IMG/VR virus record: IMGVR_UViG_3300035694_000001 | Span: 31,771-95,770 of that record | Origin: a virus | Length of the DNA: 64,000 nt | Direction: 5' to 3' (one strand) | Part shown: positions 13,047 through 63,424 of the stretch, in pieces | Layout of the letters: each line of letters begins with the position of its first letter | How positions within the stretch are numbered: the stretch's first letter is position 1 | Program-made: the position numbers and the translations under genes | Notes under the pieces: generated by a model | The model's input: only the letters and a program-made list of their open reading frames with translations | The model's database searches: none | Told to the model about the DNA's origin: nothing

Positions 13047-13937
13047 ATGACCACCGATCTCACGGCGTTGCAGCTCACCCGGCAAAAGGTCAATACCGGC
13101 ATCTGGATTTGTGCTGCCCTAACCATGACTGCTTCGGCGATTTCGGGCGTTACGGCTTTTGTCTACCTGCAAAAAGACGGCTGGGGCATTGCTTCTGGGG
13201 CCATGACTGCCCTTGCGGTTGATGTCGCGCTGTGGGTGGCCTTGACCGGTGACCGGTTGATGGAAGCTATCGGCATCCCTTCTGGCCCCTGGGCTCGGGT
13301 AGTGCGCTGGGGCACGGCCGCGATGTCGGTCACCCTCAACATCACAGCGGCGGCCGTGGCCAACATCCCGGTTACGCTCAAAGTCCCACTGATCATCCTG
13401 CACGCCTTCGTACCGCTGATCATGGTGTCGCTGGCCGAGCTGCGCGGCGAGTATGCACAGCAGCTGGCGCCCGTCGAACGCGCGGCTCTCGCAGAGATAG
13501 AGGCCCAGGAGCGAGCTGCTGATACCCCGATCGTTGCGCCATCCGAGCGAATCTCGGCTACTAGCGACCAGCTCGAAGCTCTGGGGCCGGCACTCGAAAG
13601 ATCACAACGTCCGTTGGATCTAGGGCCCGCAGTTCCAACGGTAACGCCGTTTGCTTATAGGTCTGAGCACGTCGACAACCAATTTGCTCGCCCACGCTCT
13701 GACCAGCGGAAACACACTCGATCTTCTCGAGGACAACGCCCTGACCTGCGGGTTTCCACGCCGACTGGCCAGCCGGCTGTGCGCCGCTCGAACGTGCGAG
13801 ATGCCGCGTTCGCCTGGCTCGACGCTCACCACAGCCCCGACACCACCGCACGGAAGCTCGCCGAGGCCCTCAACGGATCCGAACACACCTGCAAAAAGTT
13901 GCTCGGCGAATGGCGCCGGCAGAAGGCGGCATCATGA
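13047..13937 (+). CDS. DUF2637-type (Spd-like) membrane protein with C-terminal HTH-like domain
   Basis: The 296-residue product has four predicted membrane helices in residues 18-135, the layout of DUF2637/SpdB proteins. In actinomycete plasmids and integrative elements these are encoded beside the FtsK-like translocase and help plasmid spread. A basic disordered linker follows, then a C-terminal domain (RDAAFAWLDAHHSPDTTARK onward) resembling a small winged helix. It ends with an ATGA overlap onto the FtsK-like gene, so the two are probably made together. Confidence 0.75.
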   Translation: MTTDLTALQLTRQKVNTGIWICAALTMTASAISGVTAFVYLQKDGWGIASGAMTALAVDVALWVALTGDRLMEAIGIPSGPWARVVRWGTAAMSVTLNITAAAVANIPVTLKVPLIILHAFVPLIMVSLAELRGEYAQQLAPVERAALAEIEAQERAADTPIVAPSERISATSDQLEALGPALERSQRPLDLGPAVPTVTPFAYRSEHVDNQFARPRSDQRKHTRSSRGQRPDLRVSTPTGQPAVRRSNVRDAAFAWLDAHHSPDTTARKLAEALNGSEHTCKKLLGEWRRQKAAS

Positions 13938-30247: not shown

Positions 30248-31375
30248 CTACTGCTGCGGCTGCCAGCCTTGGGGCGGAGCACCCTGCTGGTTACCCCAGG
30301 GGTTCGCCGGATCGGGCGCAGACGGCTGGTACCCCTGCTGGGCTTGGCCGTTGGCAGCAGTCGGCGGCCCTTGTGGGGGGCCCTGCTGAGGCTGAGTCCA
30401 TGGGGCTTGGCTGGTAGGCGGTGGGCCAGCCTGCTGCGGAGGCCCTTGCTGCCAGCCCTGGGCGGCCGGTGGCGCCTGCTGAGCCCACGGGGCTTGGCCG
30501 TTAGGCAGTCCCTGGGCAGGAGGAGGCCCTTGCTGCCAGCCCTGACCCTGAGCGGCCGGCGCTTGCGCCGTCTGATACGGGTTGCCCTGCTGCGGCGGAG
30601 GGCCTTGCTGCCATGGGGTCTGGCTTTGCTGAGGCGGTGCCGTCTGTGCTGGAGGGCCCTGCTGCGGCGCTCCGTTGGTTTGCTGAGGCGGCCCTGCAAA
30701 GAAAGAATCATTGCGGCTGCCTGCAGGCGGCGGGACGTACCGGGCGGTATAGGTGAACGCCGGCATTCCTTTCTGACCATTCTGCTGAGTAGTCTGCCGA
30801 GAACCTGTGCGGGTCACCCACAGCTGGCCGCCGATCCTCAGCCGGATCTCACCTGTGTTCGCCGCACGCATAGCCTCGGTGACAGCCTTGGTGACATCCT
30901 TAGATTGAGGCAGCCAAATTGACCGCATACCGGTGTCCTCAGGGTCATTCGGCATTCGTTCATTAGTTTGCAGCGTCACGACCTTAATCATGATCGGTCG
31001 GTCACTATTCGGCCAAAACATCGGCTGCTTGGTCTTCTGATCGGTTTGCTGCCGTTCGCCGAGGCCAACGATTTCGCCGCCTCGCTCGTAGCCAATGCAA
31101 GAATCGTCACCAAACGACATGTATTTACCGCCAGTGCTGCTGGTGAAAAACTCATCATCGCCGTCTTCGTTAGCCGAGCTTGGCTGCGGCGCAGGCGGAG
31201 CTTGAGGCGTTTGCTGCCACGGCTGGCCCTGCCCCTGAGCGGGCGGCCCCGCCTGGGGCGGAGGGCCTTGCTGGGGAGGCGCTGGCTGCCAGCCCTGGTT
31301 TGGCGGTGGCCCCTGAGGCGGTCCTTGCTGCCATCCCTGAGGCGGGGCCCCTTGCTGCCACGGTGCTTGAGTCAT
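30248..31375 (-). CDS. SSB-like protein with two Pro/Gln-rich disordered arms
   Basis: The 375-residue product has a folded core at about 68-225 flanked by low-complexity arms made of QGPP, GWQQGPP and APPQ units. The core has an OB-like strand pattern (GGEIVGLGERQQ, IMIKVVTLQTNER, RLRIGGQLWVT). This position, directly before a RecB-like nuclease, is where actinophages often encode an ssDNA-binding protein. The arms could drive self-association. The SSB role is inferred. Confidence 0.6.
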   Translation of the reverse strand: MTQAPWQQGAPPQGWQQGPPQGPPPNQGWQPAPPQQGPPPQAGPPAQGQGQPWQQTPQAPPAPQPSSANEDGDDEFFTSSTGGKYMSFGDDSCIGYERGGEIVGLGERQQTDQKTKQPMFWPNSDRPIMIKVVTLQTNERMPNDPEDTGMRSIWLPQSKDVTKAVTEAMRAANTGEIRLRIGGQLWVTRTGSRQTTQQNGQKGMPAFTYTARYVPPPAGSRNDSFFAGPPQQTNGAPQQGPPAQTAPPQQSQTPWQQGPPPQQGNPYQTAQAPAAQGQGWQQGPPPAQGLPNGQAPWAQQAPPAAQGWQQGPPQQAGPPPTSQAPWTQPQQGPPQGPPTAANGQAQQGYQPSAPDPANPWGNQQGAPPQGWQPQQ

Positions 31376-31400: not shown

Positions 31401-33263
31401 TTAGTGAGTCGGAGTGAGTTGCTGGAAAGTGGCGAGCTTGGCATTCGCCGCATCAAGGATATGGCCGACCCAACTCTCTGGGCCGTACGTGTTCGTCCAC
31501 TGCTGATAGATCGCCCAGAGGCGGTCTTGTCCCGGAGCCTCACTGATCGCTTTCATGACCCCGTCATATGTCATATCTACGATGCCAGGCTGCTGGCCCC
31601 AAGGAGCCGGAGCGTTATTTTGCTGCGGTTGTGGGTCTTGCATTGCAGGCTGGGGCTGTGCTCCATCGCGATTACGCATCGCGTGCTGCGCCTTCACACA
31701 TTCTACGATCATTGATGCGAGAGGCTCCCGGTGCTTGCGCAGCGAGGCTTCATCAATCCCAGGGCTGATCAGCCTCAGCATTGGCTGTAGCTGCTCTTTC
31801 TTTGAGAGAGTGGCCAACTCTTCCACCATCTCTGTGTAGAACACCTCAGGATCGATACCGGCCCCGGTCCGAGCGATAAGATCTTGGATGTACTCGGCCG
31901 GCGGGGTGTTCTTGCTGGACCCCTTCGGTGCGGGGGGTTGCGGGCCTGGCGGCACGCCCTGAGGCGGGGCCTCAGCTGCCGGATACTGCGGCGGCTGAGA
32001 TGCCGGGCCGTGAGCCACCGTGCCTGGCGGGACGCCTGGAGGCAGCTGCTGGCCGACCACCGCAGCGGCTTGGGTGTTCATCTGAGCTACCTGCTCAGGG
32101 CCGATCGGTTGGCCAGACTGAATCTGCTGGTTGATGACTTCCTTGATCTGAGCTGCGTTGCCGTTTTGAGGCAATACAGCTTGCGCGGCAACCCACTCAA
32201 GCGGGGGGCAGCCCTGCTCGGCGGTGTGCATGTAGCCACATGTGGGGCACTTGGGTTGAGGCTGCCATTCGCCTGGCTGCGTAGGTGCTAAGATTCCTTG
32301 AGATCCTGTGTCGTCGCGAGTGTAGGGCTGAGGCATTACTACTTGAGCGGCAGCAGCGAAGGATTCCGCGACGCCTTGAATCCCAGGCACGACAGCCGGG
32401 GCAAGCCCAGTGCCCGGAAAGTACTCGTGAATGTTGATTTTCTGCTGGTGCCAGGCACGGTTATCCTCAGCAATCCGAGCGCCGACCCAGCCGAGGTCAA
32501 CCGGCACACGCAGAGCTTTAGCTTCGCCGGAGCCCGGACGGCACCACACCACAATAGAGAAGTCTCGCCGGACGGGCGGCATCGGCTCGTACTCGTGCGT
32601 GTCGTAATTCATGACGACCTCGGCATTGCTGTAGTAAGCCTGCTGAATGGTTTTGCCGCTGGGGTGCTCTACCGGGTCTTTTTCCGTTTTCCAGTCGATA
32701 ATTACCCAGGTGCCGTCATCCAATTCACCAATAGCATCAATCCTGCCACCCCGGTCGTAGATACGGCAATACACCACACGCTCATTGTAGCCGGGAACGA
32801 TCTTGATTTTCTTCGCGATCAACTCTGCTTCCACAGCTTTAATATCCGCATGGAAGTACTCGGCGATAGTATCTAAACTCTCTCCTTTCCCGAAATACCG
32901 ATCGAAGACGTGGTGCTGTGCAGAGCCGAGGTTGGCACCTGAACTGCCCCCGCCGGCCTCGAACGCAGCTGCTTCGATGGAATCCATGAGCTTGTCGTAC
33001 CCAGGATCGCTGGGGTCGGCGGCCCCGGCTCGTGCCATGAGGTCCGGCCGTAGGCCCATGCCTCGGATCACGGTCCGGCGGCGCCAGATAGTGAGCCCGT
33101 AGCCGCTCTCCATGGTGCCGGCCACTGTAGTTACCCGCGTGCGGCCCTTCACCTCACCGGTAGTCATGTCGGGCAGCAGGTACCGGCCTAGGCCGTCGCG
33201 CGGCACGTCAGCGTCGCGCACCTCCCCGCTGGTTACCTCGGTAAAAAATGTGTCATCAGTCAT
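31401..33263 (-). CDS. RecB/Cas4-like PD-(D/E)XK nuclease
   Basis: The 620-residue product has an N-terminal nuclease domain. The SGANLGSAQHHVFDRYF helix carries a conserved His, and GRIDAIGELDDGTWVIIDWK gives Asp175, Asp190 and Lys192 as the catalytic set. A CPTCGYMH zinc motif lies near 338. Residues 360-460 and 540-570 are Pro/Gln-rich like the SSB-like partner, and the C-terminal part is helical. A role in recombination or end processing is likely. AAGGAG lies upstream of ATG 33263. Confidence 0.8.
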   Translation of the reverse strand: MTDDTFFTEVTSGEVRDADVPRDGLGRYLLPDMTTGEVKGRTRVTTVAGTMESGYGLTIWRRRTVIRGMGLRPDLMARAGAADPSDPGYDKLMDSIEAAAFEAGGGSSGANLGSAQHHVFDRYFGKGESLDTIAEYFHADIKAVEAELIAKKIKIVPGYNERVVYCRIYDRGGRIDAIGELDDGTWVIIDWKTEKDPVEHPSGKTIQQAYYSNAEVVMNYDTHEYEPMPPVRRDFSIVVWCRPGSGEAKALRVPVDLGWVGARIAEDNRAWHQQKINIHEYFPGTGLAPAVVPGIQGVAESFAAAAQVVMPQPYTRDDTGSQGILAPTQPGEWQPQPKCPTCGYMHTAEQGCPPLEWVAAQAVLPQNGNAAQIKEVINQQIQSGQPIGPEQVAQMNTQAAAVVGQQLPPGVPPGTVAHGPASQPPQYPAAEAPPQGVPPGPQPPAPKGSSKNTPPAEYIQDLIARTGAGIDPEVFYTEMVEELATLSKKEQLQPMLRLISPGIDEASLRKHREPLASMIVECVKAQHAMRNRDGAQPQPAMQDPQPQQNNAPAPWGQQPGIVDMTYDGVMKAISEAPGQDRLWAIYQQWTNTYGPESWVGHILDAANAKLATFQQLTPTH

Positions 33264-33742: not shown

Positions 33743-33908
33743 TCCCTCTCCTAGGTAAATACTGCTTGACTTCTGAATCTGGATATTGCTCATTCCATAC
33801 CCAATTAAGCACAGTTCGGGCAATATCCGTGTCTGAATCCCCTGCTTCTGCATCAACAACTTCATCAAACCGATCTAGCATTCGCTGCACTTCATGTATA
33901 TCTCTCAT
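33735..33908 (-). CDS. 57-residue acidic protein
   Basis: The ATG overlaps the helicase stop by ATGA. The product is acidic with helices (VQRMLDRFDEVVDAEAGDSD and ARTVLNWVWNEQYP). Its stop overlaps the next gene's start region. Confidence 0.55.
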   Translation of the reverse strand: MRDIHEVQRMLDRFDEVVDAEAGDSDTDIARTVLNWVWNEQYPDSEVKQYLPRRGND

Positions 33909-35638
33909 ACGGATACCTCCGTTCTCGCTTCTTGATAAACGCTGCGGTACACCGGGCCGAGGGTTCGGCTGGCAATTTTAATCGTGATGGCGTCGGAAGC
34001 CTGGGCCATTGTCATTCCGTCGACACTTATATTCAGCGTCTGGGCGAAGCTCTGCTGTCCCGGTGTCGCGGTCCGTCCGGTCTGCCGCCACGCAGCTTTT
34101 TTGTGGGTAATTGTAGGGTCATCATCGAGAGCCGCATCACTTCCTATCCTTGCCGCTTCCATGGGGGTAACGCCCTCGGCCAGCCAGTAGCCGCCGGCAA
34201 AAGTCTTGGTTGATCCTGTCACGCCGACGTTATACATGCCGTTGATAGGCACCATAAAAAATATCCGAGCGCGTCCGCACTTACTCTTCTCGCTGGTTGC
34301 GATGAAGGGCATGCCGAAGTCAGTTTCTAGCCATCGTGCCGACGTTCGCTCAAAGAGATCCACATGATGAACACCGGTAATTTTCTTGGCGGTCAGCTCT
34401 CGCTCTTCAGGCTCTATGTCAAGGAGCTTGAAACACTCCTGGCAAAGGTTTTGGTCAATGCGCGACACATACCGAAGCACCCGGTACTCACCGCACTCAT
34501 CACACTCTTCAAGCTCTTGGTCTACGTCCTCGCCCGGCTCAGGTGTCTTAGATAGGTCAACCGCAGCGGCCATGTCTTTCTCGTCCAGTGTGCCGACGAA
34601 ATCAAGGATCCACGCAAGCTCCTTTCCTACCCACGGACGCAGCGCGCGGCCGATCTCTTGGATGAACCGACCTGCGAACTTGGTTCGCCGAAGGCAAAAC
34701 ACTCCATCGCAGCGCGGTGAATCCCAGCCCTCGGCCAGCGCCGAGCAAGTCACCAGCACTTTAACCGCACCGGTCTCAAAACCATGGAAAGCCCACTTGC
34801 GGTCTTTTGGTTTGGTGCTGGAAAATACCTCAGCTACGGAAACACCGGACTCTTTCAACGCTTCAGCGAAGAAACGCGCACTTGCCTGGGTAGGAGCGAA
34901 TAGGGCTATGGATTTGCCAGGGGTGATTGTGTGGTATGCATTAACCACGGTGTCTCGGAGACTATCAACCATGACCTGCTCTCCGAGGTCTTTCTCGCTA
35001 TAATCACCATCCGCTGCGGTACGCACCTGAGACATGTCAAGGTCGCCGCCAAGCTGCAACGAGTAGGGCTTGACCAGGTACCCTCGGTCGACGGCCCAGC
35101 CGATCGAGCGCTTGAAAACCACCTCCTCCCATATGTCGCCTAGCCCTAGTTTGTCCGAGCGCATCCACGTGGCTGTGAAGCCGGCTAGGTAGGCTGAGCC
35201 CCCTGGCACGGCTCCGATCCATTCGTAGTGCCTCCTGTAAATGCTTGAGACTGATACATGTGCTTCGTCCACAACGGTGAGCTGTGGTTTAGGCACTGTC
35301 TCCATTCGTTTAGGATCGCGGAGTGAGTGAATAGAGATGACGCGACATCGCTTATTTATCTCATGGCGGCGTCCTTTCACCACGCCGATATCATCGGGGT
35401 CAATTCCCGCATCCAGCAGCTTCCTAATTGTTTGGTCAATTAGTGTGTCTCGATGCAACAATATGTTTACGCTGCTTGTTCGTGCGCTATTTAGAACTTT
35501 ACCCGAGATATCTGCCATGACTACTGTCTTACCCGTCCCCGTAGGCTGTTGAATGCCGAGACGGTGCAAGCCTTTGGCGTACCCGTTATGCAGGGCCGTC
35601 GCGGCTTGTTTCTGGTAATCACGTAGTTGCACGGTCAT
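33905..35638 (-). CDS. SF2 DEAD/DEAH-box helicase
   Basis: The 577-residue product is a superfamily 2 helicase: Q-motif-like LRDYQKQA, Walker A QPTGTGKT at 31-38, DEAH at 124-127, a TAT motif (FTATWMRSD), and motif VI-like QEIGRALRP. A four-Cys zinc site (CDECGEY, CQECF) follows the helicase core at about 375-405, and the C-terminus is a separate domain. It is the general phage helicase type used in recombination and replication restart. Confidence 0.9.
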   Translation of the reverse strand: MTVQLRDYQKQAATALHNGYAKGLHRLGIQQPTGTGKTVVMADISGKVLNSARTSSVNILLHRDTLIDQTIRKLLDAGIDPDDIGVVKGRRHEINKRCRVISIHSLRDPKRMETVPKPQLTVVDEAHVSVSSIYRRHYEWIGAVPGGSAYLAGFTATWMRSDKLGLGDIWEEVVFKRSIGWAVDRGYLVKPYSLQLGGDLDMSQVRTAADGDYSEKDLGEQVMVDSLRDTVVNAYHTITPGKSIALFAPTQASARFFAEALKESGVSVAEVFSSTKPKDRKWAFHGFETGAVKVLVTCSALAEGWDSPRCDGVFCLRRTKFAGRFIQEIGRALRPWVGKELAWILDFVGTLDEKDMAAAVDLSKTPEPGEDVDQELEECDECGEYRVLRYVSRIDQNLCQECFKLLDIEPEERELTAKKITGVHHVDLFERTSARWLETDFGMPFIATSEKSKCGRARIFFMVPINGMYNVGVTGSTKTFAGGYWLAEGVTPMEAARIGSDAALDDDPTITHKKAAWRQTGRTATPGQQSFAQTLNISVDGMTMAQASDAITIKIASRTLGPVYRSVYQEARTEVSV

Positions 35639-37759: not shown

Positions 37760-39817
37760 GTGCAGGTCATCGAGACGGAGCTAGGACTACTGAGGGTAGT
37801 CAACACCCTGGAGGACGCCTCGGCCCTCTGGGAGTGGACGCGTGAGCGCCAAGGTCGTTGGCTGGGGCTCGACGCAGAGACCAACGCGCATGACCCCTTC
37901 TCCGCCTCGTACCAGCTGCGTACCGTGCAGGTGGCCGATGAAGCATCCGGTTGGGTGATTCAGGTCCAACGACCAGACATGTCCCAGGTTGTGCGGGCCG
38001 TGGTGTCCAGTCACGACGCGTGGTGGGCGTGGTTCGCACGCAATGAGGTCAACTTCATCGAGCGGGGCGTCCCTGGGTCCGTGCGGCTGGGCCAGGCCGC
38101 TCCGCATATATACGATGGGCAGCCGCTGCTGGCATGGTACAACCCACGTACAGTTACTACGCAATCAGCGAAAGACAACATCGATCCTCGTATCTCTCAG
38201 CCGCGCGCACTGAAGCCAGCCAGCGCGTTAGATCTTGGATTTGACTACCTTCACAAAGCTGAGCAGATCTTGCACGAAAAATTCAAAGCCATATATAAAC
38301 GAGACAATGGAAGCACCCCAGCTGAGAAGATCTGGAAGCCTTATGGCTTCGAGCACATAGACGACAATGACATAGATTATTTGAGGTACGCCGGGTTAGA
38401 TGCGCTCGTTACCGCTATCTTTGTTAATAAAATGGGTCGTGAGGTGCATCAACGCAACCAATGGGATAACGGCTATGCCAAAGGTTGCTGGTGGGATCTT
38501 AGATGGCAGTGGCATGCTGACCTCAGCCAGTATCGTGGGCGGGTCATTGATGGTCCGTATGTCATGTGGCTCAGCGAGCAGCTCAAAAACATTGTCGACA
38601 GCAATAGAAGGTTGCTCGACTGGTACCATATCAATCCGAGTGCGTCAGGGGTTGGAATTGGTAACGCATTCGAGTGGCTTAGCAATCAGGGACTGATGCA
38701 GTTCAAGAATACCAAGACCAGCAAGAAAACTGGAACAACCTGCTGGGACAAATTTGTCTTAGCCGACATCATTGCCAACGAGCCCGAAAGCTATGCAGGC
38801 AAGCTAGCTACCGCGATTCAAGCTGTGCGCAAGGCAGCTAAGTTCGATGCTTCTTACCTCAAGCCCATGCGCAAAGTACTAGAATTTGACGGCCGAATCC
38901 ACCCGGATACCCGAGTCATCGGAGCTATTAGTTCGAGAAATAGTGAGTCTCGGCCGCCTTGTCAGCAGCTGCCGAAGAAAGAGAAGAAGCTCAAAGTACG
39001 TCCAGCTATTTGTGCTCCGCCCGGATGGCTCATCGTCACGGCCGACCTTAAACAAGGAGAGCCCCGAACCATGGCTGGTTTGTCCGGCGACCAGAATCTT
39101 AAACGTGATCTGCTCCATGGCGACCTATATAGCTCACTGGCTGGTCTGACTTATGGTGATAAATTCAACTCAGATCCCAGGATCTGCAAAGAAGACCCGA
39201 CTTCAGTGCATTACAAAATGCGACAAGCTGCAAAGTTCGGTAGTCTTGCAACAGACTATGGGTGCGGAGTCGGCAAATATGCTGGGCTGCTAAGCATCCA
39301 TGGTGTGCTAAGTATGTCAGTCAGCGATGCTCACGTAGCGCTGAAACGTAGAGAAGTCGCGTACCCTGACCTTACTAGATTTCGTAACCGAATGAACGCC
39401 CAGCCGGCTATAATACTGGAGTCTGGGTGGATTGCTCCGCTTTGGGACCGCTATTTCGTTGATGAAAAAGGCATTCATCTATCCACCAAACCAAGCCGAC
39501 TAGGTTTGAATTACGCGACTCAAGGAAATCAACGGTACGTGTTTTCTATCGCCGTGCATAGAATTATTGACTGGGGTTGGTCTTGGGCGCTTTATTTCTT
39601 CATGCATGATGAGTTAGGGCTGTGCGTGCCTGCGCATATGGCGGATGAGGCAGCAATTATTCTAGAAAAAGCCATGACCCTTGACTTTCATGGTGTACCG
39701 ATTGAGTGTGATGTTGACAAGCCGCCTTACAGTCCTAGATGGACTAGCTACCCAGATGAATACTTCACAGCCACAGACGTGGCGACACTTGATGACCAGG
39801 TATTGGAAGGTTGGTAG
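37760..39817 (+). CDS. polA: Family A DNA polymerase (Pol I-like) with 3'-5' exonuclease domain
   Basis: The 685-residue product lacks the 5' nuclease of host Pol I. The N-terminal exonuclease domain has LDAET near 37-41 and GLDALVTAIFVNKM as a late exo motif. The polymerase domain shows motif A ADLKQGEPRTMAG near 428, motif B KMRQAAKFGSLATDYG near 487-502, and motif C MHDE near 615. The Asp in motif C makes the metal site complete. This is the replicative polymerase of many actinophages. It starts at GTG with no Shine-Dalgarno sequence, matching the leaderless promoter. Confidence 0.95.
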   Translation: MQVIETELGLLRVVNTLEDASALWEWTRERQGRWLGLDAETNAHDPFSASYQLRTVQVADEASGWVIQVQRPDMSQVVRAVVSSHDAWWAWFARNEVNFIERGVPGSVRLGQAAPHIYDGQPLLAWYNPRTVTTQSAKDNIDPRISQPRALKPASALDLGFDYLHKAEQILHEKFKAIYKRDNGSTPAEKIWKPYGFEHIDDNDIDYLRYAGLDALVTAIFVNKMGREVHQRNQWDNGYAKGCWWDLRWQWHADLSQYRGRVIDGPYVMWLSEQLKNIVDSNRRLLDWYHINPSASGVGIGNAFEWLSNQGLMQFKNTKTSKKTGTTCWDKFVLADIIANEPESYAGKLATAIQAVRKAAKFDASYLKPMRKVLEFDGRIHPDTRVIGAISSRNSESRPPCQQLPKKEKKLKVRPAICAPPGWLIVTADLKQGEPRTMAGLSGDQNLKRDLLHGDLYSSLAGLTYGDKFNSDPRICKEDPTSVHYKMRQAAKFGSLATDYGCGVGKYAGLLSIHGVLSMSVSDAHVALKRREVAYPDLTRFRNRMNAQPAIILESGWIAPLWDRYFVDEKGIHLSTKPSRLGLNYATQGNQRYVFSIAVHRIIDWGWSWALYFFMHDELGLCVPAHMADEAAIILEKAMTLDFHGVPIECDVDKPPYSPRWTSYPDEYFTATDVATLDDQVLEGW

Positions 39818-45279: not shown

Positions 45280-47600
45280 GTAGCGCCGTGCAACCTCAAA
45301 GTGTGGTGTCTGTGTATGGGTCGGTGGCGCAGACCTACTACCAGCGCGGCTGGGAAGGTGTGCTGCCACTGCCACCAGGGGCCAAGACCGAACCCCCCAA
45401 GGGCTACACAGGCGACACCGGGCGGTACCCGACGCAGGCTCAGGTGGCCGGCTGGGCGAGCACCCATGCCGCCGGCAACGTCGCCTTGCGGCTGCCGGAC
45501 AATGTCCTCGGACTCGATGTCGACGCCTACGAAGGCAAGCTGGGTGGCCAGACGCTAGCGGCCTTAGAAGCCCGGCTGGGGCGCCTCCCGGCTACCTGGG
45601 TGAGCACGTCCCGCGAGGACGGCAGCGGATCCGGGATTCGCCTCTTCCGGGCACCTGGCGGCCTGGTATGGCGCAACGGCATCGGCGCGGACATCGACGT
45701 CATCCGCCGGTCCTGGCGCTACGCTGTGGTCTGGCCGAGTACGCACCCCAAAACCCGCAGCACCTACCGCTGGTACGCGCCCGGCTGGATCCCGGCGGTC
45801 GCACCGCCTGGGCCTGGGGATCTTGCTGAGTTGCCTTTTCCCTGGGTGCAGTTTTTGACCGAAGTACCGGAAGTAGGGAAACCGAGGGCAAGCAAAGGAG
45901 TAAATCGTCTTAAGTCTGATGACTTTTTTGAACCGCCGATTCCTTATAAGGAGGCTAACCGCAGAATCCGGGCACGTTTGGATGCTGTGACTGACCATGC
46001 GCGTCGAGGGTGGGCTGGCTTCCGGGATACTTTACGGGATTCTTCATATGATATTGGTGGATTTGTTGGCGGAGGGCATCTTAGCTATGAGGAAGCTCAG
46101 CAAGCTTTGACCCAAGCTATTATGTACGCAAGCACACCAGACCGTCCAGTATGGCCAAATACAGATGATTTGTTGTGGATTCAACAAGGGCTTGATGATG
46201 GAGCTTCGTTAGCGTGGAAGGTAGCTAAGCCTAGGCCGGTGACACCTGACCCAAAAGTAATAACGGAAGGACGTAGTGACAGCGAAGAAGTAAAGAAGGG
46301 TGATGGTAAAAGGGGGCGCAAGCTTCCTCTTATCCCTGACCATGTGTGGGAAAAAAGGAGCTGGTTGCAGGCAATCCGAGATAGGTCGCGAGGCACATCC
46401 GATAGCCCGGATGGTGTGCTTGGCGCTGTGCTAGGCATTTACGCTGCTAGCGTCCCACACAATGTCAAGATTTCGACAGGTATCCGGCGGCCGATCGGCT
46501 TTTCGCTCCTTGTTGGGCTCGTGAGTAAATCAGGTCGGGGCAAGTCCAGCGCCTGGGGGATGGCGTGCGATGAGTTTGCCCCTGATGATGCAGCACCTAT
46601 CTACCCCGTGCCTACTGGGGAAGGGCTCACCGAAAAACTAATGGGGAAGGTGATCACGATCGATCCTTTTACAGGCAAGGAGGTAAGCGATAAGAAGCAA
46701 GTTCGGTATAACGCGATATTCCATATCGATGAGGGCGCAGCACTTAACGCGGGGATGCTTCGGGATGGGGCCTCGGTCGGCGCCGTCATGCGGGCTATGT
46801 TCTCAGACCAGCAACTTGGTAACGCTAACGCTGATGTAGACCGAGCGCGCAACATCCCACGCGGGATGTACTCTCTTTCTCTGATCGTGGGCTATCAGCC
46901 GTCAACAGCTATGCGGATAGTTAAAGACACCTCTACAGGGATGGCTCAGCGGTTCCTGTGGTTCTCTGCCCGCCGGCGGCCGACGATGGAGCCCGGCATC
47001 CCTGAAGTGCCGAGGTTTGTGCTGCCCCACATCACGACTCTGCCTGCAGCGAATACATCGAGCGGGGCGGCACAGCATCTCGTGCACGTGGCGCCGGACG
47101 TGGCGGCTCTGATTCAGCACGAGAGCGATGCACGGGACGCTGCGGATGAAGACGACGCGGAAGACGACCTCGACTCGCAGCGGCCTGTTGTGGTGGCCAA
47201 GGTGGCGGGGCTGGCCTGCTTGATCGAAGGCCGGACACAGATCACCATGGACGACTGGCAGCTGGCCAGCGAGCTGTACGCGGCTAGTTGCGCCGTGCGT
47301 GACGAACTGATCGAGCTGGACGAAGAGCGGTCCGTTGTCGAGCGCCGGACCCAGGCGGCCCAGCAAGGCGAGGCTGATCAGGTGCGGAAGATGTACGGGG
47401 TCGAGGTGGTCAACGTCGCCGGCACGATCGTGCGACGGCTGCAGAAACTTGCTCGCTCTGTGCCGCACCGGGATTTGGTGCATGCAGTTGCCTCAAAACA
47501 TCGCGTTTACTTACGTAAATCCATAGAGTTAGCTCTAGAACAGAGCTGGATTGTCGAGGTAGATGGAAAATTTTTGATCGGCGATGTGCCGTTTGAGTAA
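45276..47600 (+). CDS. Bifunctional prim-pol primase with P-loop ATPase domain
   Basis: The 774-residue product has an N-terminal prim-pol domain: LDVDAY near 80, SGIRLF near 119 (the usual His is Arg here), and WPSTHP near 153. A C-terminal helicase-like ATPase has Walker A SKSGRGKSSA near 417 and GMYSLSLIVGYQPSTA in its later strands. Together these would prime and unwind DNA. Prim-pol proteins are also the replication initiators of several actinomycete integrative elements. The origin-like repeats directly after the gene fit that role. Confidence 0.88.
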   Translation: MSSAVQPQSVVSVYGSVAQTYYQRGWEGVLPLPPGAKTEPPKGYTGDTGRYPTQAQVAGWASTHAAGNVALRLPDNVLGLDVDAYEGKLGGQTLAALEARLGRLPATWVSTSREDGSGSGIRLFRAPGGLVWRNGIGADIDVIRRSWRYAVVWPSTHPKTRSTYRWYAPGWIPAVAPPGPGDLAELPFPWVQFLTEVPEVGKPRASKGVNRLKSDDFFEPPIPYKEANRRIRARLDAVTDHARRGWAGFRDTLRDSSYDIGGFVGGGHLSYEEAQQALTQAIMYASTPDRPVWPNTDDLLWIQQGLDDGASLAWKVAKPRPVTPDPKVITEGRSDSEEVKKGDGKRGRKLPLIPDHVWEKRSWLQAIRDRSRGTSDSPDGVLGAVLGIYAASVPHNVKISTGIRRPIGFSLLVGLVSKSGRGKSSAWGMACDEFAPDDAAPIYPVPTGEGLTEKLMGKVITIDPFTGKEVSDKKQVRYNAIFHIDEGAALNAGMLRDGASVGAVMRAMFSDQQLGNANADVDRARNIPRGMYSLSLIVGYQPSTAMRIVKDTSTGMAQRFLWFSARRRPTMEPGIPEVPRFVLPHITTLPAANTSSGAAQHLVHVAPDVAALIQHESDARDAADEDDAEDDLDSQRPVVVAKVAGLACLIEGRTQITMDDWQLASELYAASCAVRDELIELDEERSVVERRTQAAQQGEADQVRKMYGVEVVNVAGTIVRRLQKLARSVPHRDLVHAVASKHRVYLRKSIELALEQSWIVEVDGKFLIGDVPFE

Positions 47601-47616
47601 TACGTAAAATAAAATC

Positions 47617-47653
47617 TGGTCACTCTCTGTAATAGGGGGTGGCCATTTTTTTA
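47617..47653 (+). terminator. Rho-independent terminator of the primase operon
   Basis: A 9-bp stem (TGGTCACTC with GGGTGGCCA, two G-T pairs) is followed by a run of seven T. Confidence 0.8.
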
Positions 47654-48183
47654 TTCCCGGAAAAATTTTGGTGGAATCTTCATGCCCGATTTAGGCAACC
47701 TGAGTGTCCGTTTTGGGTAAATCAAGTTCCAACGTTGGAAGGGGCGGTGGAACACATCGTCGCAGCTCAGAGCACGTTGGAATCGTTGGAACCGTTCCAC
47801 CACCCTCCCGAGCCCCTAGGCAATATTTTGTAATATTACAGATTACCGAGGGTAATTATTTCCTCTGTATTTAATGTATCGTAACAGTGTTATAAAACTA
47901 CTTATACATCACGTAAGGAAAATATTATTTATTCACAAATATTTACCCCGTCGGGTGTGGAGGGTGTTGGAATCGTTGGAACCGTTCCAACGTGCCCTGA
48001 CCTGCGACGATACGTTCCACCACTGTTCCACCGCCCCCAGAGCTAGCAGCGTTTGCCCAGGTCAGAGGCTTTCCACCGTTGGAACGCTAGGGCGTTTGCC
48101 CAGGTCAGAGCGCTGGCTTCTTGATAGATTAGTCATCGTTGCAGGTCAGGGCACTAGCCTTGCGGAAAACTAGCTCTTGTGTG
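47654..48183. repeat. Candidate replication origin: GTTGGAA iterons, AT-rich stretch, 19-bp direct repeat
   Basis: This non-coding 0.5 kb follows the primase gene. It contains a 14-bp palindrome TTCCAACGTTGGAA (47727), two exact copies of a 24-bp block starting GTTGGAATCG (47776 and 47966), and further GTTGGAA or GGTGGAA/TTCCACC units at 47670, 47746, 48013, 48025 and 48071. An AT-rich stretch fills 47820-47946. A 19-bp direct repeat starting GCGTTTGCCC lies at 48049 and 48092. Iterons beside an AT-rich segment and a primase gene are typical of origins. Confidence 0.7.
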
Positions 48184-48190
48184 ATACGAT
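48160..48190 (+). promoter_or_regulatory. Promoter of a leaderless transcript
   Basis: TTGCGG (48160-48165), 19 bases and TACGAT (48185-48190) with TGTGA before it. The ATG at 48197 is where transcription should start, and there is no Shine-Dalgarno sequence. Confidence 0.5.
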
Positions 48191-48196
48191 CACGTC

Positions 48197-48367
48197 ATGA
48201 CTGATCACGAAACGGAAGAGTGCCTAGTGGCGCCGATCCAAACCATGTACGCCCCCTCGGACCGAGAACGGATCCGAGCGGCTGCGCGGCGCAAGCATCT
48301 GGCACCCTCGGTCCTTCAGCGCGTTGTGGTGCTTGAATGGCTGGATGCCCAGGAGCGTGGAGTATGA
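48197..48367 (+). CDS. Small ribbon-helix-helix-like protein
   Basis: The 56-residue product has a short strand and two helices (SDRERIRAAARRKHLAPSVL, then QRVVVLEWLDAQ) in the style of ribbon-helix-helix repressors. It lies next to the origin-like repeats, where copy-number or origin regulators are often encoded. The start is probably leaderless. The stop overlaps the next gene. Confidence 0.55.
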   Translation: MTDHETEECLVAPIQTMYAPSDRERIRAAARRKHLAPSVLQRVVVLEWLDAQERGV

Positions 48368-48870
48368 TGCGCTGCGCTCTTTACCGACATTTTGATGTTG
48401 ATGATGTGCTTCTCTATGTTGGTATCAGTGAACGACCAGGCGCTCGATCTAGCGGACACGCCGCTGATAGTGTGTGGGTTCAATTTGCTGTACGTGAGGA
48501 GGCTGTGTGGTTGGACAGTCGTGAAGAAGCGTTAGCAGCTGAGCGCATCACGATCCAATCTGAAAAACCTTTGTTTAACCGGCAACACGTCAATTACGAT
48601 AAACAGCCTACGATTGATTATCTCGCTCGCCAACTCAAGTGCATTCAAGAGCATACAGTTTGCAATTCTATGCATGGAATTGCTTCCGCTTCAATAGAAC
48701 GGGCGGTTTATCGGTGGCTTGATACAGCGACGTTCGCGGACGGACAGATTCTCAATGATTTTAGTGAGCCTGTGGAGCGAGCTGTCAGAGATTGGCTAGA
48801 AAAGAAACAACCTCCGCTTATTGTCGCGCCGTGGTCTGCTCAGAATGGAGCCCAGAATGCCAGCATGTAA
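48364..48870 (+). CDS. GIY-YIG-like protein
   Basis: The 168-residue product starts with a GIY-YIG-type fold: ALYRHFDVDDVLLYVGISER, then a conserved Arg/His and REEALAAERITIQSEKPLFN at its end. The C-terminal half is a different helical domain. The first motif is LYR rather than GIY, as in divergent subfamilies. It may be a nuclease, or a targeted version of one. Confidence 0.7.
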   Translation: MMRCALYRHFDVDDVLLYVGISERPGARSSGHAADSVWVQFAVREEAVWLDSREEALAAERITIQSEKPLFNRQHVNYDKQPTIDYLARQLKCIQEHTVCNSMHGIASASIERAVYRWLDTATFADGQILNDFSEPVERAVRDWLEKKQPPLIVAPWSAQNGAQNASM

Positions 48871-53557: not shown

Positions 53558-53910
53558 GGGTTGAAGCAGAGATCACGGCAATGCATGATCGATTGATGCG
53601 AGACAGCATGATGTTTACAGGTAATCATAATCACCCAGCTATTGTCGCCCTGGGCTGGGTGTGTGATCGGCTAGTACCCGATGCGGAGATCCTTGCCGCT
53701 GCTGACTTGGCCGACGATGACGAGTACGAAATCCGCGCGGAAGATGTTGCTGAGCGTCTCGTTGAGCTAGCTGAAGATGACGTGTCGGCACTGAAAGAGT
53801 ACTTTAGTCGGACGGTTAATGTGCGTCTTGTCGAGATAGCCGCAGCTGCGCGTAAAGTTGATCGGCTGTGCAAGGCTGAAATGAAGAGAAGAAAGGATAG
53901 TAATGGCTAG
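53554..53910 (+). CDS. 118-residue acidic helical protein
   Basis: The product is acidic and helical (AEDVAERLVELAEDDVSALK) with a basic C-terminal tail (KAEMKRRKDSNG). The ATG overlaps the transporter stop and the end overlaps the Toprim gene. Confidence 0.6.
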   Translation: MRVEAEITAMHDRLMRDSMMFTGNHNHPAIVALGWVCDRLVPDAEILAAADLADDDEYEIRAEDVAERLVELAEDDVSALKEYFSRTVNVRLVEIAAAARKVDRLCKAEMKRRKDSNG

Positions 53911-54928
53911 GATTGAGTATCAAAGCTGGAAGCCCGGCAGCGAGGCGCGAGAAGCCATCGCACAAGCGAACGCTATTTGCCGGGAGTACCAGCTGGCTGG
54001 GTACGACTTGACTCTGCGGCAGCTTTTCTACCAGTTCGTCTCGCGCGACTTAATCCCCAACTCCCAGCAGAGCTACAAGCGCCTCGGCGATATTATCAAC
54101 AAAGCGCGATTGTCCGGGCTTATGGATTGGAATTACATAATCGATCGCACACGTAACCTGCAGTCGCTCTCTCACTGGTCGACTCCCGGTGAGATCATCC
54201 GCTCGGCCGCACAGTCGTTTGCCTTGGACAAGTGGCGCAACCAGCCGACTCGCGTAGAAGTGTGGGTAGAGAAGGAGGCCCTTGCTGGCATCGTCTCACA
54301 GGCCGCTGATCGATACGACTGTGCGTGGTTCTCGTGCCGGGGTTATGTGAGCCAGAGCGAGCTTTGGGGTGCCGCTCAGCGTCACCTGAGGTACCTCAAA
54401 CAAGGGCAGCGTGTTGTGGTGGTGCACCTCGGCGACCATGACCCATCCGGTATCGACATGACCCGCGACATCACAGACCGGCTGATGATGTTCATCACTC
54501 AGGACTGGCTTAATCAAATGATGCCGCCTGGTGAGGAGTCAGTGCGGGTATCTGAGATTATTAAACACATGATCTATAATATCGATAATGTTGGTATGCT
54601 TTCGGGTGACCACGCAGGCCGAGATCCTATTACGGTTAACCGAATCGCGCTCAATATGCACCAAGTAGAAGAGTACGATCCTCCACCAAACCCAGCGAAG
54701 CTGACCGATTCCCGGGCGCCTGATTATGTGGAGCTTTATGGTGACGACAGCTGGGAGCTTGACGCTTTATCACCAGAAGTGTTAGACAACTTGATCAGTG
54801 AGGCTATTAGGAAGCAGTTAAACCAGGAGTTGTTTGAGGACATGGCAAGCGATGAAGAAAACCACCGTGAGGTTCTCACCGCTGCATCTGCCCGGTGGTC
54901 CGAGGTGCAAGATTTCTTGGAGGCATAG
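53903..54928 (+). CDS. Topo VI-A/Spo11-like Toprim protein
   Basis: The 341-residue product has an N-terminal winged-helix-like domain in which TLRQLFYQFVSRD places Tyr43 where Topo VI-A and Spo11 have the catalytic tyrosine. A Toprim domain follows with the acidic VEKEAL at 122-127 and GDHDPSG at 178-184. The C-terminal 100 residues are helical. Topo VI-A cleaves duplex DNA; no Topo VI-B ATPase gene is nearby, so it may act alone or with a host partner. Proteins of this type occur in other phages without a known role. Confidence 0.75.
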   Translation: MARIEYQSWKPGSEAREAIAQANAICREYQLAGYDLTLRQLFYQFVSRDLIPNSQQSYKRLGDIINKARLSGLMDWNYIIDRTRNLQSLSHWSTPGEIIRSAAQSFALDKWRNQPTRVEVWVEKEALAGIVSQAADRYDCAWFSCRGYVSQSELWGAAQRHLRYLKQGQRVVVVHLGDHDPSGIDMTRDITDRLMMFITQDWLNQMMPPGEESVRVSEIIKHMIYNIDNVGMLSGDHAGRDPITVNRIALNMHQVEEYDPPPNPAKLTDSRAPDYVELYGDDSWELDALSPEVLDNLISEAIRKQLNQELFEDMASDEENHREVLTAASARWSEVQDFLEA

Positions 54929-59714: not shown

Positions 59715-59984
59715 ATGGTCGCTGGCAAAGAAGTCACACCTAAAGACGCTGAAAGTACCGAGCGCTTGATGCGCTACTGGTCAGAAGGCGAAGGCGCGAC
59801 TAAGTTGCAGTGGGGTGTGACCGGAGATTTTAACCGTTGTCGAGTTGAGTTAAGTAAGTATGTGGGGCCAAGCACTGTGGATGGTTTGTGTGCGAACCTA
59901 CATAAAAGGGCTACTGGTTTTTGGCCAGGTCACGCCCCGACTGAACAAACGCCGGGCGCCAGCAAAGACAAGGGCAAAAAATGA
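59715..59984 (+). CDS. Conserved actinophage protein
   Basis: The 89-residue product has SEGEGATKLQWGVTGDFNRC, then VDGLCANLHKRATGFWPG. I know this pattern from actinophage structural regions, without a clear function. ATG 59715 has GAGGTG upstream. It overlaps the glycosyltransferase start. Confidence 0.7.
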   Translation: MVAGKEVTPKDAESTERLMRYWSEGEGATKLQWGVTGDFNRCRVELSKYVGPSTVDGLCANLHKRATGFWPGHAPTEQTPGASKDKGKK

Positions 59985-60670
59985 TGGCCGACCTGCTGAT
60001 GATTGTGCCGTCACGAGGTCGCCCTCAAAATGCCCGGGATCTGTACACTTCGTGGATGGCTACAGCGACCGGAAACTCACAGTTGCTTTTCGTTGTTGAC
60101 GACGATGATCCCCAACTCGGCACATATGAAAATCAGATGGCGTGGATGCTTAATGCCCAGCTGCTTGTAGGGCCGAGGCTGCGCATGGTGGGTTCGCTCA
60201 ACGCGGCCGCCACGAGCCAAGGGCGGCAATACAAGTATGTGGGTTTCATGGGCGATGACCACCGGCCCCGCACGGTTGATTGGGATAACCGCCTCATGGA
60301 TGTGCTGGCTCAATCGCCGGCCAGCATCGCGTACGGTAATGATTTGCTGCAGGGTGAGAAAATGGCTACGGCCGTTGTGATGACCTCGGATATCGTTGCG
60401 GCCCTCGGCTACATGGCGCCGCCCTGCTTGGTGCACCTTTGTGTTGATTTGTGTTGGAACCTGTGGGGTGAGCGCCTCGGCACGTTGACGTACCTGGATA
60501 ATGTCGTTATTGAGCACATGCACCCAGCTAACGGCAAAGCGATGAATGATGCTGGTTACCAGGATGCAAATAGCACAGAGCGCATCGCCTCAGATTCCGC
60601 CGCGTTCTACGAATACCGAGACGGTGGTCAGCTAGACGCTGATGTCGACAAGTTGCGTACCTTGTTGTAG
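59981..60670 (+). CDS. Glycosyltransferase, GT-A fold
   Basis: The 229-residue product begins LLMIVPSRGRPQNARDLY, followed by FVVDDDDPQ with the metal-binding DxD and a second GDDHRPRTVDWD. The end (CVDLCWNLWGERLG) is common to phage GT-A enzymes. It would transfer a sugar to DNA, a virion protein or a host glycan. Other sugar genes follow closely. Confidence 0.8.
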   Translation: MMADLLMIVPSRGRPQNARDLYTSWMATATGNSQLLFVVDDDDPQLGTYENQMAWMLNAQLLVGPRLRMVGSLNAAATSQGRQYKYVGFMGDDHRPRTVDWDNRLMDVLAQSPASIAYGNDLLQGEKMATAVVMTSDIVAALGYMAPPCLVHLCVDLCWNLWGERLGTLTYLDNVVIEHMHPANGKAMNDAGYQDANSTERIASDSAAFYEYRDGGQLDADVDKLRTLL

Positions 60671-60718
60671 ACTACACAGAGTAAGGACCCCAGCGAGTGC
60701 GGGAACACTCCTGGGGCC

Positions 60719-61348
60719 GTGGCTAACCTGAGAGAGCAGGCTCGCATGAAGTATGATACACGTCCATGCATAATTTGCAATGTACCTTATAATCCTGTGC
60801 GGGTCGATTCACGTGCATGCGGTAAGAGGTGCCGGAATATACTAACTCGTCGTGAATCTGATGCGCGTAAGCGTGGGGAATTCGTGCCGTTACGACGTCC
60901 TAGAATTGTAACCAGTACTTCAAAAATGTGCACTCTGTGTGAGAAAATCAAAAAATTCACAGAGTTTGGCAACAAAGCGGCAAGTCCAGACGGCTTTAAC
61001 ACTTGGTGCCGTGCTTGCGCAAATGATCGAAGTCGTGTGTGGTATTGTGACAATACCGAACGTGCTAACACTAATACTCGCGCGTGGCGCCTTCGACAAC
61101 GTGGTTTTACTGCGTATGAACTAGCTTATCGCATGAATGAACAAGATAACAAATGTGTTGTGTGTCTTAGTCGGTTTCATTCTTCTGGTAAGCGCACTCC
61201 TGTCATTGATCACGACCATGCCACAGGCCATACTCGCGGAATTATTTGTACATTGTGCAACACAGCTATAGGTCAACTCGGCGACAATGAGACGGGATTG
61301 CAACGGGCGCTTGAGTATGTACGTCGAGGGAGTCTGGTGAGTGCATGA
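60719..61348 (+). CDS. Recombination endonuclease VII-like protein
   Basis: The 209-residue product (from GTG 60719; ATG 60746 is an alternative) has an N-terminal zinc motif (CIICNVPYNP, ACGKRCRN), a middle CTLCEKI...CRAC, and the core KCVVCLSRF, VIDHDHATGHTRG and ICTLCNTAIG. It interrupts the sugar gene cluster and is AT-richer than it, suggesting insertion as a homing-type gene. Confidence 0.9.
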   Translation: MANLREQARMKYDTRPCIICNVPYNPVRVDSRACGKRCRNILTRRESDARKRGEFVPLRRPRIVTSTSKMCTLCEKIKKFTEFGNKAASPDGFNTWCRACANDRSRVWYCDNTERANTNTRAWRLRQRGFTAYELAYRMNEQDNKCVVCLSRFHSSGKRTPVIDHDHATGHTRGIICTLCNTAIGQLGDNETGLQRALEYVRRGSLVSA

Positions 61349-61962
61349 CCCTGGTTGTTGTGCCGTGGCGCGACGACGGCCACCGCGTCTTGACCTGCAC
61401 GGCTGTCTGTATCGCCCTCAGGCACATGCTGCCGAGGTCGCCCATGGTCTTGGCCGACTCTGGCCATGAGCCCTTCAACCGCTCGGCCTCACGCAACCTC
61501 GGCGTCCGCTCCGCAGATCCTGGGGAGCTTGTAGTGGTGTGCGACGCGGACACGCTTCCAGATCCTCAGGGTCTCGCCACGGCCATCCGACGCGCCTATG
61601 ATGGCCGGCTGCACTACCCCTTCGCTGTCGTCAACTACCTCTCTGAGGCTGGCACGCTGAGCGTGCTGCAGGGTAATCAGCCAAGCCGGGAGCACATCGA
61701 GCGTTCAATACCCAGCGCGCAGGGCGGCATCATGGTCATGCGCGCCAGTGCGTGGCTCGAAGCCGGCGGCATGGATGAACGATTCATAGGCTGGGGCTAT
61801 GAGGATAATGCGTGGTACGCCAAAGTAGCGAAGACTATCGGGCCGCCAATTCATCATGCAGGTGTGGCTTGGCATCTCTGGCACCCAGCGCTGCGGTATC
61901 AAGGTACTACCGAAGAGACCAATAACTTTTTGATGGCCCGGAAAGCGATTGATGAACGGTAA
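61345..61962 (+). CDS. Glycosyltransferase family 2-like protein
   Basis: The 205-residue product has VVPWRDDGHR, VVCDADT as the DxD, GGIMVMRASAWLEAGGMDE, and GWGYEDNAW, the signature of galactosyltransferase-type GT2 C-termini. It probably adds a hexose. ATG 61345 overlaps the endonuclease stop. Confidence 0.85.
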   Translation: MTLVVVPWRDDGHRVLTCTAVCIALRHMLPRSPMVLADSGHEPFNRSASRNLGVRSADPGELVVVCDADTLPDPQGLATAIRRAYDGRLHYPFAVVNYLSEAGTLSVLQGNQPSREHIERSIPSAQGGIMVMRASAWLEAGGMDERFIGWGYEDNAWYAKVAKTIGPPIHHAGVAWHLWHPALRYQGTTEETNNFLMARKAIDER

Positions 61963-62540
61963 TGGCTGAGTATCGCTTCTTCCCTGAGGGCACTGTCCCT
62001 TACGTTTCTACCGAGCAATTCCATCATGGTCGAGATCGCGCGCCGCACCTAGAACAACAAGCACACCGTACCCGGCTCTTTCGAGTCGCTCATATTGTGA
62101 GATCACTGCATCCCGATTCCGTTGTTGACCTTGGCTGCGGAGATGGCGGATTGCTGTCTTTGCTCAAAAATGTGGATTCATGGGGTTATGATTTTCAGCC
62201 GTCGAATGTTGAGGGCTGGGAAGAACGCGGTGTGACAGCGGAAACCAAAGATGTGTTGTACCCAGGCGCGGGTGTTCGTTGGGCTGAGGTTGCTGTGATG
62301 ACCGAGGTACTCGAACACATTGCCGACCCTCACGGCGTTGTGGCTTGGGTAGCGAAACACTGCAAATACCTCGTGGCATCTTCACCCCATAGCGAGACAC
62401 CTGAGTGGCATGCTGAAGAGCATGCTTGGGGTTGGGATATGTTGGGATACGCGGCTTTGTTCTCGGAGCACTGCGAAATCGTGCAGCATGAGTACATAGA
62501 CTGGTGCCAGATTCTCGTAGGTCGGAGCAGATACGTATGA
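61962..62540 (+). CDS. SAM-dependent class I methyltransferase
   Basis: The 192-residue product has motif I VVDLGCGDGGLLSLL, an acidic end to strand 2 (GYDFQP) and TEVLEHIADP (motif after strand 4). This is the small-molecule type, probably acting on a sugar or nucleotide sugar. It is coupled to the flanking glycosyltransferase and epimerase genes. Confidence 0.85.
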   Translation: MAEYRFFPEGTVPYVSTEQFHHGRDRAPHLEQQAHRTRLFRVAHIVRSLHPDSVVDLGCGDGGLLSLLKNVDSWGYDFQPSNVEGWEERGVTAETKDVLYPGAGVRWAEVAVMTEVLEHIADPHGVVAWVAKHCKYLVASSPHSETPEWHAEEHAWGWDMLGYAALFSEHCEIVQHEYIDWCQILVGRSRYV

Positions 62541-63424
62541 ACAAAAAAGCTCTAGTGACCGGTTCGGCCGGGCTGATCGGCCGTTATTTTGTAGAGCACT
62601 TGCTTAGCGGTAGCTGGGATGTCACAACAATTGATATAAAGTATCGTCATCGAGATGCGCGCGAATACTTCCGTCAGATTGACACACCTAAATTTGACCT
62701 GGTCGTGCACTGCGCCGCGCACGTAGGCGGTCGGCTGGATATTGAGGGCAAGGCTGCTTTTATCGGGGCTTATAACGTTCAGCTTGATGGTGCGATGTTT
62801 GAGTGGGCTTTGCGCACTCGGCCAGCGCATGTTGTGTACTGGTCTAGCTCTGCTGCGTATCCTGTGTGTATGCAAAAAAGTGACCATTACGAGAGGCTTT
62901 GTGAGCCTGATATTAACGTGAATTTTCCGGCTCCTGCAGACTTTACTTACGGCTGGGCCAAGCTCGTGGGCGAGCGGCTTGCTCAAGAAGTTCAGGCTGA
63001 GGGAATCAAGGTGCATGTATTTCGCCCATTTTCGGGATGGGCCGATGACCAGGATACCTCATACCCGATGGGTGCCTTCTTAGACCGAGCCCGCCGCAAG
63101 GCAGATCCGTTTGACGTCTGGGGTGACGGCAATCAGGTACGTGATTTCATCCACATGAGCGACATCATCGGCGCGACCATGGCCGCGATAGACCAGGACT
63201 ACCCCGGACCGCTCAACTTCTGCACAGGCGTGCCTACGAGCTTCAACGAGCTGGCCGAGTTGGTCACCTCGGCGGCTGGCTACCGTCCAGCGCTGAAACA
63301 CCACTCAGACAAGCCTCAGGGTGTCCGTTACCGAGTTGGTGACCCTACCGAGCTGCACAAGGTCTGGACGCCTCGCGTGAGCCTTGAGGAGGGCATCACA
63401 CGAGCGTTAGCAGGTAGAGCGTGA
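62537..63424 (+). CDS. NAD-dependent epimerase/dehydratase (extended SDR)
   Basis: The 295-residue product has TGSAGLIG at 8-15 (NAD binding), HCAAHVGG, the catalytic SSS and YGWAK, and GDGNQVRDFIHMSDI. This fits nucleotide-sugar epimerases or dehydratases. It would supply a modified sugar for the glycosyltransferases. The start ATG 62537 overlaps the methyltransferase stop. Confidence 0.88.
   Translation: MNKKALVTGSAGLIGRYFVEHLLSGSWDVTTIDIKYRHRDAREYFRQIDTPKFDLVVHCAAHVGGRLDIEGKAAFIGAYNVQLDGAMFEWALRTRPAHVVYWSSSAAYPVCMQKSDHYERLCEPDINVNFPAPADFTYGWAKLVGERLAQEVQAEGIKVHVFRPFSGWADDQDTSYPMGAFLDRARRKADPFDVWGDGNQVRDFIHMSDIIGATMAAIDQDYPGPLNFCTGVPTSFNELAELVTSAAGYRPALKHHSDKPQGVRYRVGDPTELHKVWTPRVSLEEGITRALAGRA

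Follow-up and report, generated by a model that had tools for sequence, protein, structure and literature searches.

Behind the prim-pol gene of the virus record IMGVR_UViG_3300035694_000001 lies a gap filled with repeats, which raises the question whether the phage starts its replication here and, if so, which protein reads the site. The record comprises 95,770 bp; the window analysed here, 64,000 nucleotides long, corresponds to its bases 31771-95770, and the studied gap occupies 596 bp at 47601-48196 (all positions are window positions). From sequence comparison we conclude that the repeat-rich gap behind the primase gene is very probably the replication origin of this soil phage, read by the C-terminal end of the PrimPol protein, because the repeats and the DNA-reading helix change together across dozens of related phages.

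The record, which is classed as linear, is possibly incomplete. It carries the gene set of a tailed phage (terminase, portal, maturation protease, major capsid protein, tape measure and endolysin), and searches of the record for a tyrosine integrase, a resolvase-type recombinase and a ParA-type ATPase found no match; it is not an integrative element of the kind to which an earlier, sequence-only reading of this DNA had likened its primase. A block with glycosyltransferase and nucleotide-sugar epimerase genes is located at 59981-63424. No known phage or plasmid shares the DNA of the right part of the window at megablast level, and a scan of host genome contigs found no relative.

The gene ending at 47600, directly upstream of the gap, does encode a primase as that reading had supposed: its N-terminal domain matches PF09250 (E=7.8e-23), PHROGs assigns it to DNA polymerase/primase, DUF3987 is called in its relatives, and its nearest annotated matches are phage primase/polymerases of Gordonia, Mycobacterium, Rhodococcus and Corynebacterium (about 30% identity). 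It was further likened to the primases of actinomycete integrative elements (AICEs), and PF09250 is indeed common to both; however, AICEs mostly pair a Prim-Pol with a separate RepAM or RepPP protein (PMC3218068), whereas the window protein is a PrimPol-AAA+-winged-helix fusion, and the record differs from an AICE in its virion genes and in the missing integrase or resolvase match. A FtsK/SpoIIIE-like gene is present at 13910-16030. In a Foldseek search with the ATPase part, MCM proteins were the best matches (E 3.6e-6 and 1.9e-5), but because the TM-scores were below 0.5, the suggestion that this domain may be MCM-like is kept as a lead; a PDB sequence search with the PrimPol profile returned chance beta-lactamase matches alone. 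The AlphaFold model predicts a C-terminal winged helix (helices at residues 701-717, 723-729 and 732-747, strands at 751-754 and 757-760, mostly with pLDDT 85-90), and four residues that covary with the iterons are placed at the start of its third helix, the predicted recognition helix. Since the phage encodes its own DNA polymerase, helicase, exonuclease and topoisomerase-like protein, PrimPol is probably the initiator and primase instead of the main replicase. The replication genes and the features of the locus are:

31401-33263, minus strand: exonuclease (PHROGs)
33905-35638, minus strand: helicase (PHROGs)
37760-39817, plus strand: DNA polymerase (PHROGs)
45300-47600 (extendable to 45234), plus strand: PrimPol, putative initiator, with AEP primase-polymerase, AAA+ ATPase/helicase-like part (DUF3987 type) and C-terminal winged helix
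47397-47579, plus strand: predicted C-terminal winged helix of PrimPol, residues ~700-760 (AlphaFold model)
47493-47504, plus strand: codons for SKHR, residues 732-735, predicted start of the recognition helix
47617-47652, plus strand: predicted intrinsic terminator of the PrimPol transcript (terminator scan; folding z=-4.3)
47725-47811, no strand: PrimPol-proximal iteron block with palindrome TTCCAACGTTGGAA, GGTGGAAC, a 24-bp block and CAGCTCAG at 47763; kept in the relatives L001 and L002
47746-48021, no strand: long inverted repeat, a potential giant stem-loop, with arms 47746-47808 and 47959-48021 around the core
47812-47958, no strand: AT-rich core, presumed melting site
47959-48036, no strand: distal iteron block, with the second 24-bp block followed by GTTCCACC sites directed back at the core
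48049-48152, plus strand: outer direct repeats, with CAGGTCAG motifs at 48058, 48101 and 48142 and palindrome TTCCACCGTTGGAA at 48071-48084; partly lost in L002
48197-48367, plus strand: small gene for 56 amino acids, RHH-like by eye, no family match; a neighbour, probably outside the origin
53903-54928, plus strand: topoisomerase-like protein (PHROGs)

Every feature that the sequence-only reading names is present where it was placed. The exact 24-bp block GTTGGAATCGTTGGAACCGTTCCA occurs twice (47776-47799 and 47966-47989), the 14-bp palindrome TTCCAACGTTGGAA of the same core lies at 47727-47740 and has a near copy, TTCCACCGTTGGAA, at 48071-48084, a 19-bp direct repeat is found at 48049-48067 and 48092-48110, and the AT-rich segment of 130 bases (47819-47948; 27% GC) includes the lowest-GC 100 bp of the record. 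Half-sites were put at about five more, which is too few, as the gap contains 14 [GT]TGGAA sites (8 GTTGGAA and 6 GGTGGAA). The gap holds 8 of the 17 GTTGGAA copies of the record, where the frequency elsewhere in the record predicts 0.06, and repeated 10-mers occupy 90 positions in it (mean 1.3, maximum 12 in 2000 shuffles); in the whole-record repeat analysis that had been proposed as a check, it is the most repeat-dense of all 596-bp windows. The second most repeat-dense place of the record, at 30250-30730, falls in an ORF of the reverse strand (30248-31375) and resembles a coding repeat of low complexity. The two 24-bp blocks are direct repeats of each other and sit in 63-nt arms that are 83% complementary, on either side of the AT core; iteron orientation is mixed in the window phage, and therefore the convergent layout is clearer in its relatives. 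A second motif, CAG[CG]TCAG, has five copies in the gap. Short ORFs within the gap are not conserved in relatives. Rfam gave no match, and an RNA-based origin was dropped on this ground. The GC skew, also proposed as a check, shows no sign change at the gap, lends the site no support and was set aside as origin evidence.

Absence of the repeats from close relatives with the same primase would speak against an origin, but two viral contigs (L001 and L002) whose PrimPol is 80% identical to that of the window retain palindrome, blocks and AT core behind it. Among the three, the iteron blocks are 77-92% identical and the AT core 56-68%, i.e. the sites are more conserved than the DNA between them. 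The terminator structure is kept in both relatives as well (folding z=-6.7 and -7.3). Among 2.9 million viral contigs, the 23-bp block pattern is confined to these two known relatives.

We extended the comparison to the PrimPol family, first with a profile search and then with the ATPase-winged-helix part as query; each gave 80 loci, many of those in the second set being new. Clustering at 70% identity reduced the DUF3987-type loci from the two sets to 63 non-redundant ones. In 40 of the 63, repeats and AT minimum both belong to the top 5% of their own locus (0.16 expected); within 300 bp after the initiator stop, 38 loci have their densest repeats (rank 1% or better; 0.6 expected) and 43 their AT minimum (likewise at rank 1% or better); of the 50 non-redundant loci in the first set, 17 show their peak of repeat density immediately behind PrimPol (0.5 expected for a rank within the top 1%), redundancy and phylogeny inflating some of the family counts. 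Iterons of the GGACA type flank the core in mainly opposite orientation and are mostly directed to it: across 40 such loci, 112 are forward and 43 reverse on the PrimPol side, 47 forward and 86 reverse on the far side. The layout is also found with PrimPol proteins that have a D5/SF3-type helicase (e.g., L066 and L087) and on two plasmids recorded as circular, whose initiators are of the PrimPol or DUF3987 type. One of them, plasmid III of Nonomuraea gerenzanensis (L020), has the repeat-rich gap downstream of its initiator and looks like a phage-plasmid because terminase genes are present too; in the other, plasmid 4 of Tsukamurella tyrosinosolvens (L019), the repeat-rich layout lies about 0.7 kb further downstream. 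Iterons were not found behind the initiator in L017 (Corndog-like Catdawg), L026, L031, L132 and L162, and the Zierdtviridae phages examined have no such gap.

The motif CGCWGSTCAG(AG) occurs in or near the AT cores of 26 loci on the plus strand and 5 on the minus strand (9.7 expected per strand, redundant loci included), with examples in L022 (+114), L117 (+120), L075 (+65), L020 (+113) and the window (47763 and 48058-48149). It is kept only as a lead, because AT words dominated a family-wide search for a second motif by k-mer enrichment. Another word, GATCTTG, is found downstream of PrimPol in 17 of 53 loci (5.5 expected), including L038, L063, L071, L087 and L097.

The iteron sequence is lineage-specific and tracks the tetrapeptide that opens the recognition helix: [SGN]RD[RK] goes with GGACA, [AHMY]RD[RK] with GTACA, and SKHR, SKDR, GRHR or GKEK with GGAA. 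The first hint came from isolated Gordonia phages, in which Jojo24, Reyja and Santhid combine ACCTGGAAA iterons with an ASKDRE winged helix and Tarzan combines CGTGGACAC iterons with ASRDRD, the core being largely common to all four. The first set had yielded the rule that RD[RK] accompanies iterons with a terminal ACA; this rule was applied to new loci, with previously used contigs excluded, and was split into three classes during tabulation. Held-out [SGN]RD[RK] went with GGACA in 22/28 against 2/22 at below 70% identity (Fisher 7e-7) and in 15/19 against 1/15 at below 50% (3e-5), and the association was weaker at below 40% (p 0.04). For [AHMY]RD[RK] and GTACA the counts were 3/4 against 1/46 at below 70% identity (Fisher 8e-4), a class that is partly post hoc, like the GGAA class, because the classes were refined during tabulation; at below 50% identity one such cluster was left and the rule had no support. 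The association is partly phylogenetic, and winged-helix and iteron distances were weakly correlated in an unbiased comparison (rho 0.22, p 0.066). In five sister pairs the helix and all iterons have switched jointly while much of the core was kept (identities refer to the C-terminal 400 amino acids):

Tarzan, SRDR with GGACA, and Santhid, SKDR with GGAA; 93% identical
L121, GRDR with GGACA, and L123, MRDR with GTACA; 86% identical
L140, GRDK with GGGGGACA, and L127, GKEK with GGGGGAACA; 85% identical
L119, SRDR with GGTGGACA, and L117, SADR with GGTGGCGA; 83% identical
L118, GRDK with GGGGGACA, and L122, ARDR with GAGTACA; 81% identical

Because the iterons follow the recognition-helix residues and the RHH-like gene is not conserved at its place, the likely reader of the iterons is PrimPol's own winged helix and not the RHH-like protein. 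The comparative covariation, with the joint switches in the sister pairs, is the strongest indication that PrimPol reads them. That the repeats might instead serve the small protein encoded at 48197 as operator or partition site is very unlikely. Plasmid RHH proteins bind short repeats beside their own genes, and the gene does follow the gap directly in the window, L001 and L002, as the sequence-only reading had noted for the window; but its product has no match in Pfam, NCBIfam or PHROGs, so that the RHH label describes its appearance and no family model backs it, the record has no ParA-type ATPase match, and the iterons covary with PrimPol and not with the neighbour. Moreover, the next gene after the iterons varies among relatives with the same layout (RHH-like, Holliday-junction resolvase, endonuclease VII or unknown), and since unrelated genes replace the RHH-like one in most relatives that keep the iterons, its product is unlikely to be the common reader. 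In the window it is overlapped by a gene at 48337-48870 that matches phage endonuclease families. An origin dependent on host DnaA, with the repeats as diverged DnaA boxes, is less credible still. In its favour, the GTGGACA sequence of GGACA-type iterons in relatives is similar to the core of the DnaA box, and 48 GGACA-type loci together contain 11 exact TGTGGAYAA sites. In the window gap, however, an exact DnaA box is absent and one match with one mismatch lies in the AT core; the DnaA-box total of the window is not above chance. Iterons of the GTTGGAA, GTACA, GGAGG and GGCGA kinds do not correspond to DnaA boxes, and they track the winged helix encoded by the phage itself.

The origin could also be recognised as a structure, the complementary arms being extruded as a giant stem-loop whose loop is the AT core, and the winged helix binding the stem. 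The long inverted repeat folds stably as DNA (z=-9.0 in the window and -15.2 in L001), the arms of L001 are almost perfectly complementary, a short segment differs between the window and L001 and yet matches between both arms within each, and the archaeal plasmid pRN1, for which such an origin was proposed and which has an AEP-SF3-winged-helix gene, requires a stem-loop behind it (PMC4234260). However, arm complementarity in that segment is not kept in L002, the arms of most family members consist only of convergent iterons, and coupled iteron switches with a conserved core require that the sequence is read, so that we consider recognition by structure improbable. The gap might, finally, be regulatory DNA only, with repressor operators or autoregulation of the PrimPol operon and without origin function, which agrees with the terminator and with the fact that repeated operators are common in actinophages. 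We give this little credence, since the AT minimum of the record lies inside symmetric iterons, the stretch has no sigma-70-like promoter, the position 3' of the initiator is fixed across phages with differing neighbours, and the iteron copies are nearly confined to the gap.

As a whole, the evidence is best explained, in our judgement with high probability, by an origin extending from 47725 to about 48115, in which the winged helix would read the iterons, the AAA+ part melt the core and the AEP domain prime. Family comparison suggests that the C-terminal winged helix recognises short iterons (CGTTGGAAC in the window) on both sides of the AT-rich core. Two initiator assemblies, one on each iteron block, would face in opposite directions, and from domain content and known systems we infer that the AAA+ (MCM-like) domains would melt the AT core and load onto single strands, that the AEP domain would make the first primers, and that the DNA polymerase (37760-39817) and helicase (33905-35638) of the phage would extend the forks, probably bidirectionally. 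The terminator after PrimPol may shield the origin from transcription. As iterons and recognition helix appear to co-evolve, related phages would differ in origin specificity.

This layout matches the origins of PICI/SaPI satellites and, in part, that of pRN1. PICI/SaPI origins lie directly 3' of rep, consist of two iteron sets around an AT-rich region and drive plasmid replication, an organisation stated to be known in no other bacterial replicon (PMC6092414); the iterons are read by the C-terminal domain of their initiator, a helicase, and primase and rep are sometimes fused (PMC6092414, PMC7581432). The window phage and its family likewise place the origin candidate directly 3' of the initiator gene, with two iteron sets flanking an AT-rich region (in mixed orientation in the window phage itself); a C-terminal reader domain in PrimPol is predicted from strong residue/iteron covariation. 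In contrast to a PICI or SaPI, the window replicon is a complete tailed phage with virion genes, not a satellite, its initiator carries AEP and DUF3987 ATPase domains, and iterons and recognition helix vary together. In pRN1, ORF904 combines AEP, SF3 helicase and winged helix, the same order of domain types, and the essential region lies downstream of the replication gene, behind a terminator, in the position of the candidate origin of the window, but pRN1 is reported to have a 100-nt stem-loop and no iterons (PMC4234260). Iterons dominate in the window clade, which comes near the pRN1 origin because a very stable stem-loop is possible, although the pairing is not kept in every relative.

A similar domain organisation is known from PrimQH/PrimPol-PV1 primases with DUF3987 and a C-terminal winged helix, which was suggested to recognise the origin, although no origin was identified there (Kazlauskas et al. 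2018, PMC5862659). The SCCmec helicase Cch2 binds, with its C-terminal domain, iterons downstream of its own gene (PMC7581432), as PrimPol is predicted to do; it differs in having three iterons and a separate A-family primase, and no two-sided AT core is described. The sequence-only reading had seen the layout of an iteron replicon, and conservation and protein/DNA covariation strongly support an iteron origin linked to PrimPol. Its layout is nearer to PICI/SaPI than to a classical iteron plasmid with tandem direct iterons on one side: iterons and AT region are present, yet the iterons stand on both sides, mixed or convergent, with no exact DnaA box in the window gap. Mycobacteriophage prophage origins use RepA-like or RNA initiators (PMC7157519). 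A literature search covering few subscription journals found no description of origins or iterons in this phage family, which is weak evidence.

With somewhat less than even confidence, we propose an origin code, in which the recognition-helix tetrapeptide predicts the iteron and specificity changes by switching the tetrapeptide together with all 4-13 iterons, the melting core being kept. The RD of GGACA-type winged helices (GRDK, SRDR) is similar to the GGRDH stretch in the DNA-binding domain of DnaA, a domain whose targets are TGTGGATAA-type boxes (PDB 1j1v), and the RD reading of GTGGACA is possibly convergent with DnaA; CGCWGSTCAG would be a possible priming or loading site. The origin layout that was described as a peculiarity of PICIs seems to be widespread among complete PrimPol phages and to extend to two plasmids recorded as circular, and the winged helix of AEP-helicase fusions, until now merely suggested as origin finder, would gain a concrete target. 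Natural variation offers a testable recognition code for origin choice and a route to mutually compatible sets of plasmid origins for Gordonia and other actinobacteria, and, because the initiator and many iterons must change jointly, a handle on how origin specificity evolves.
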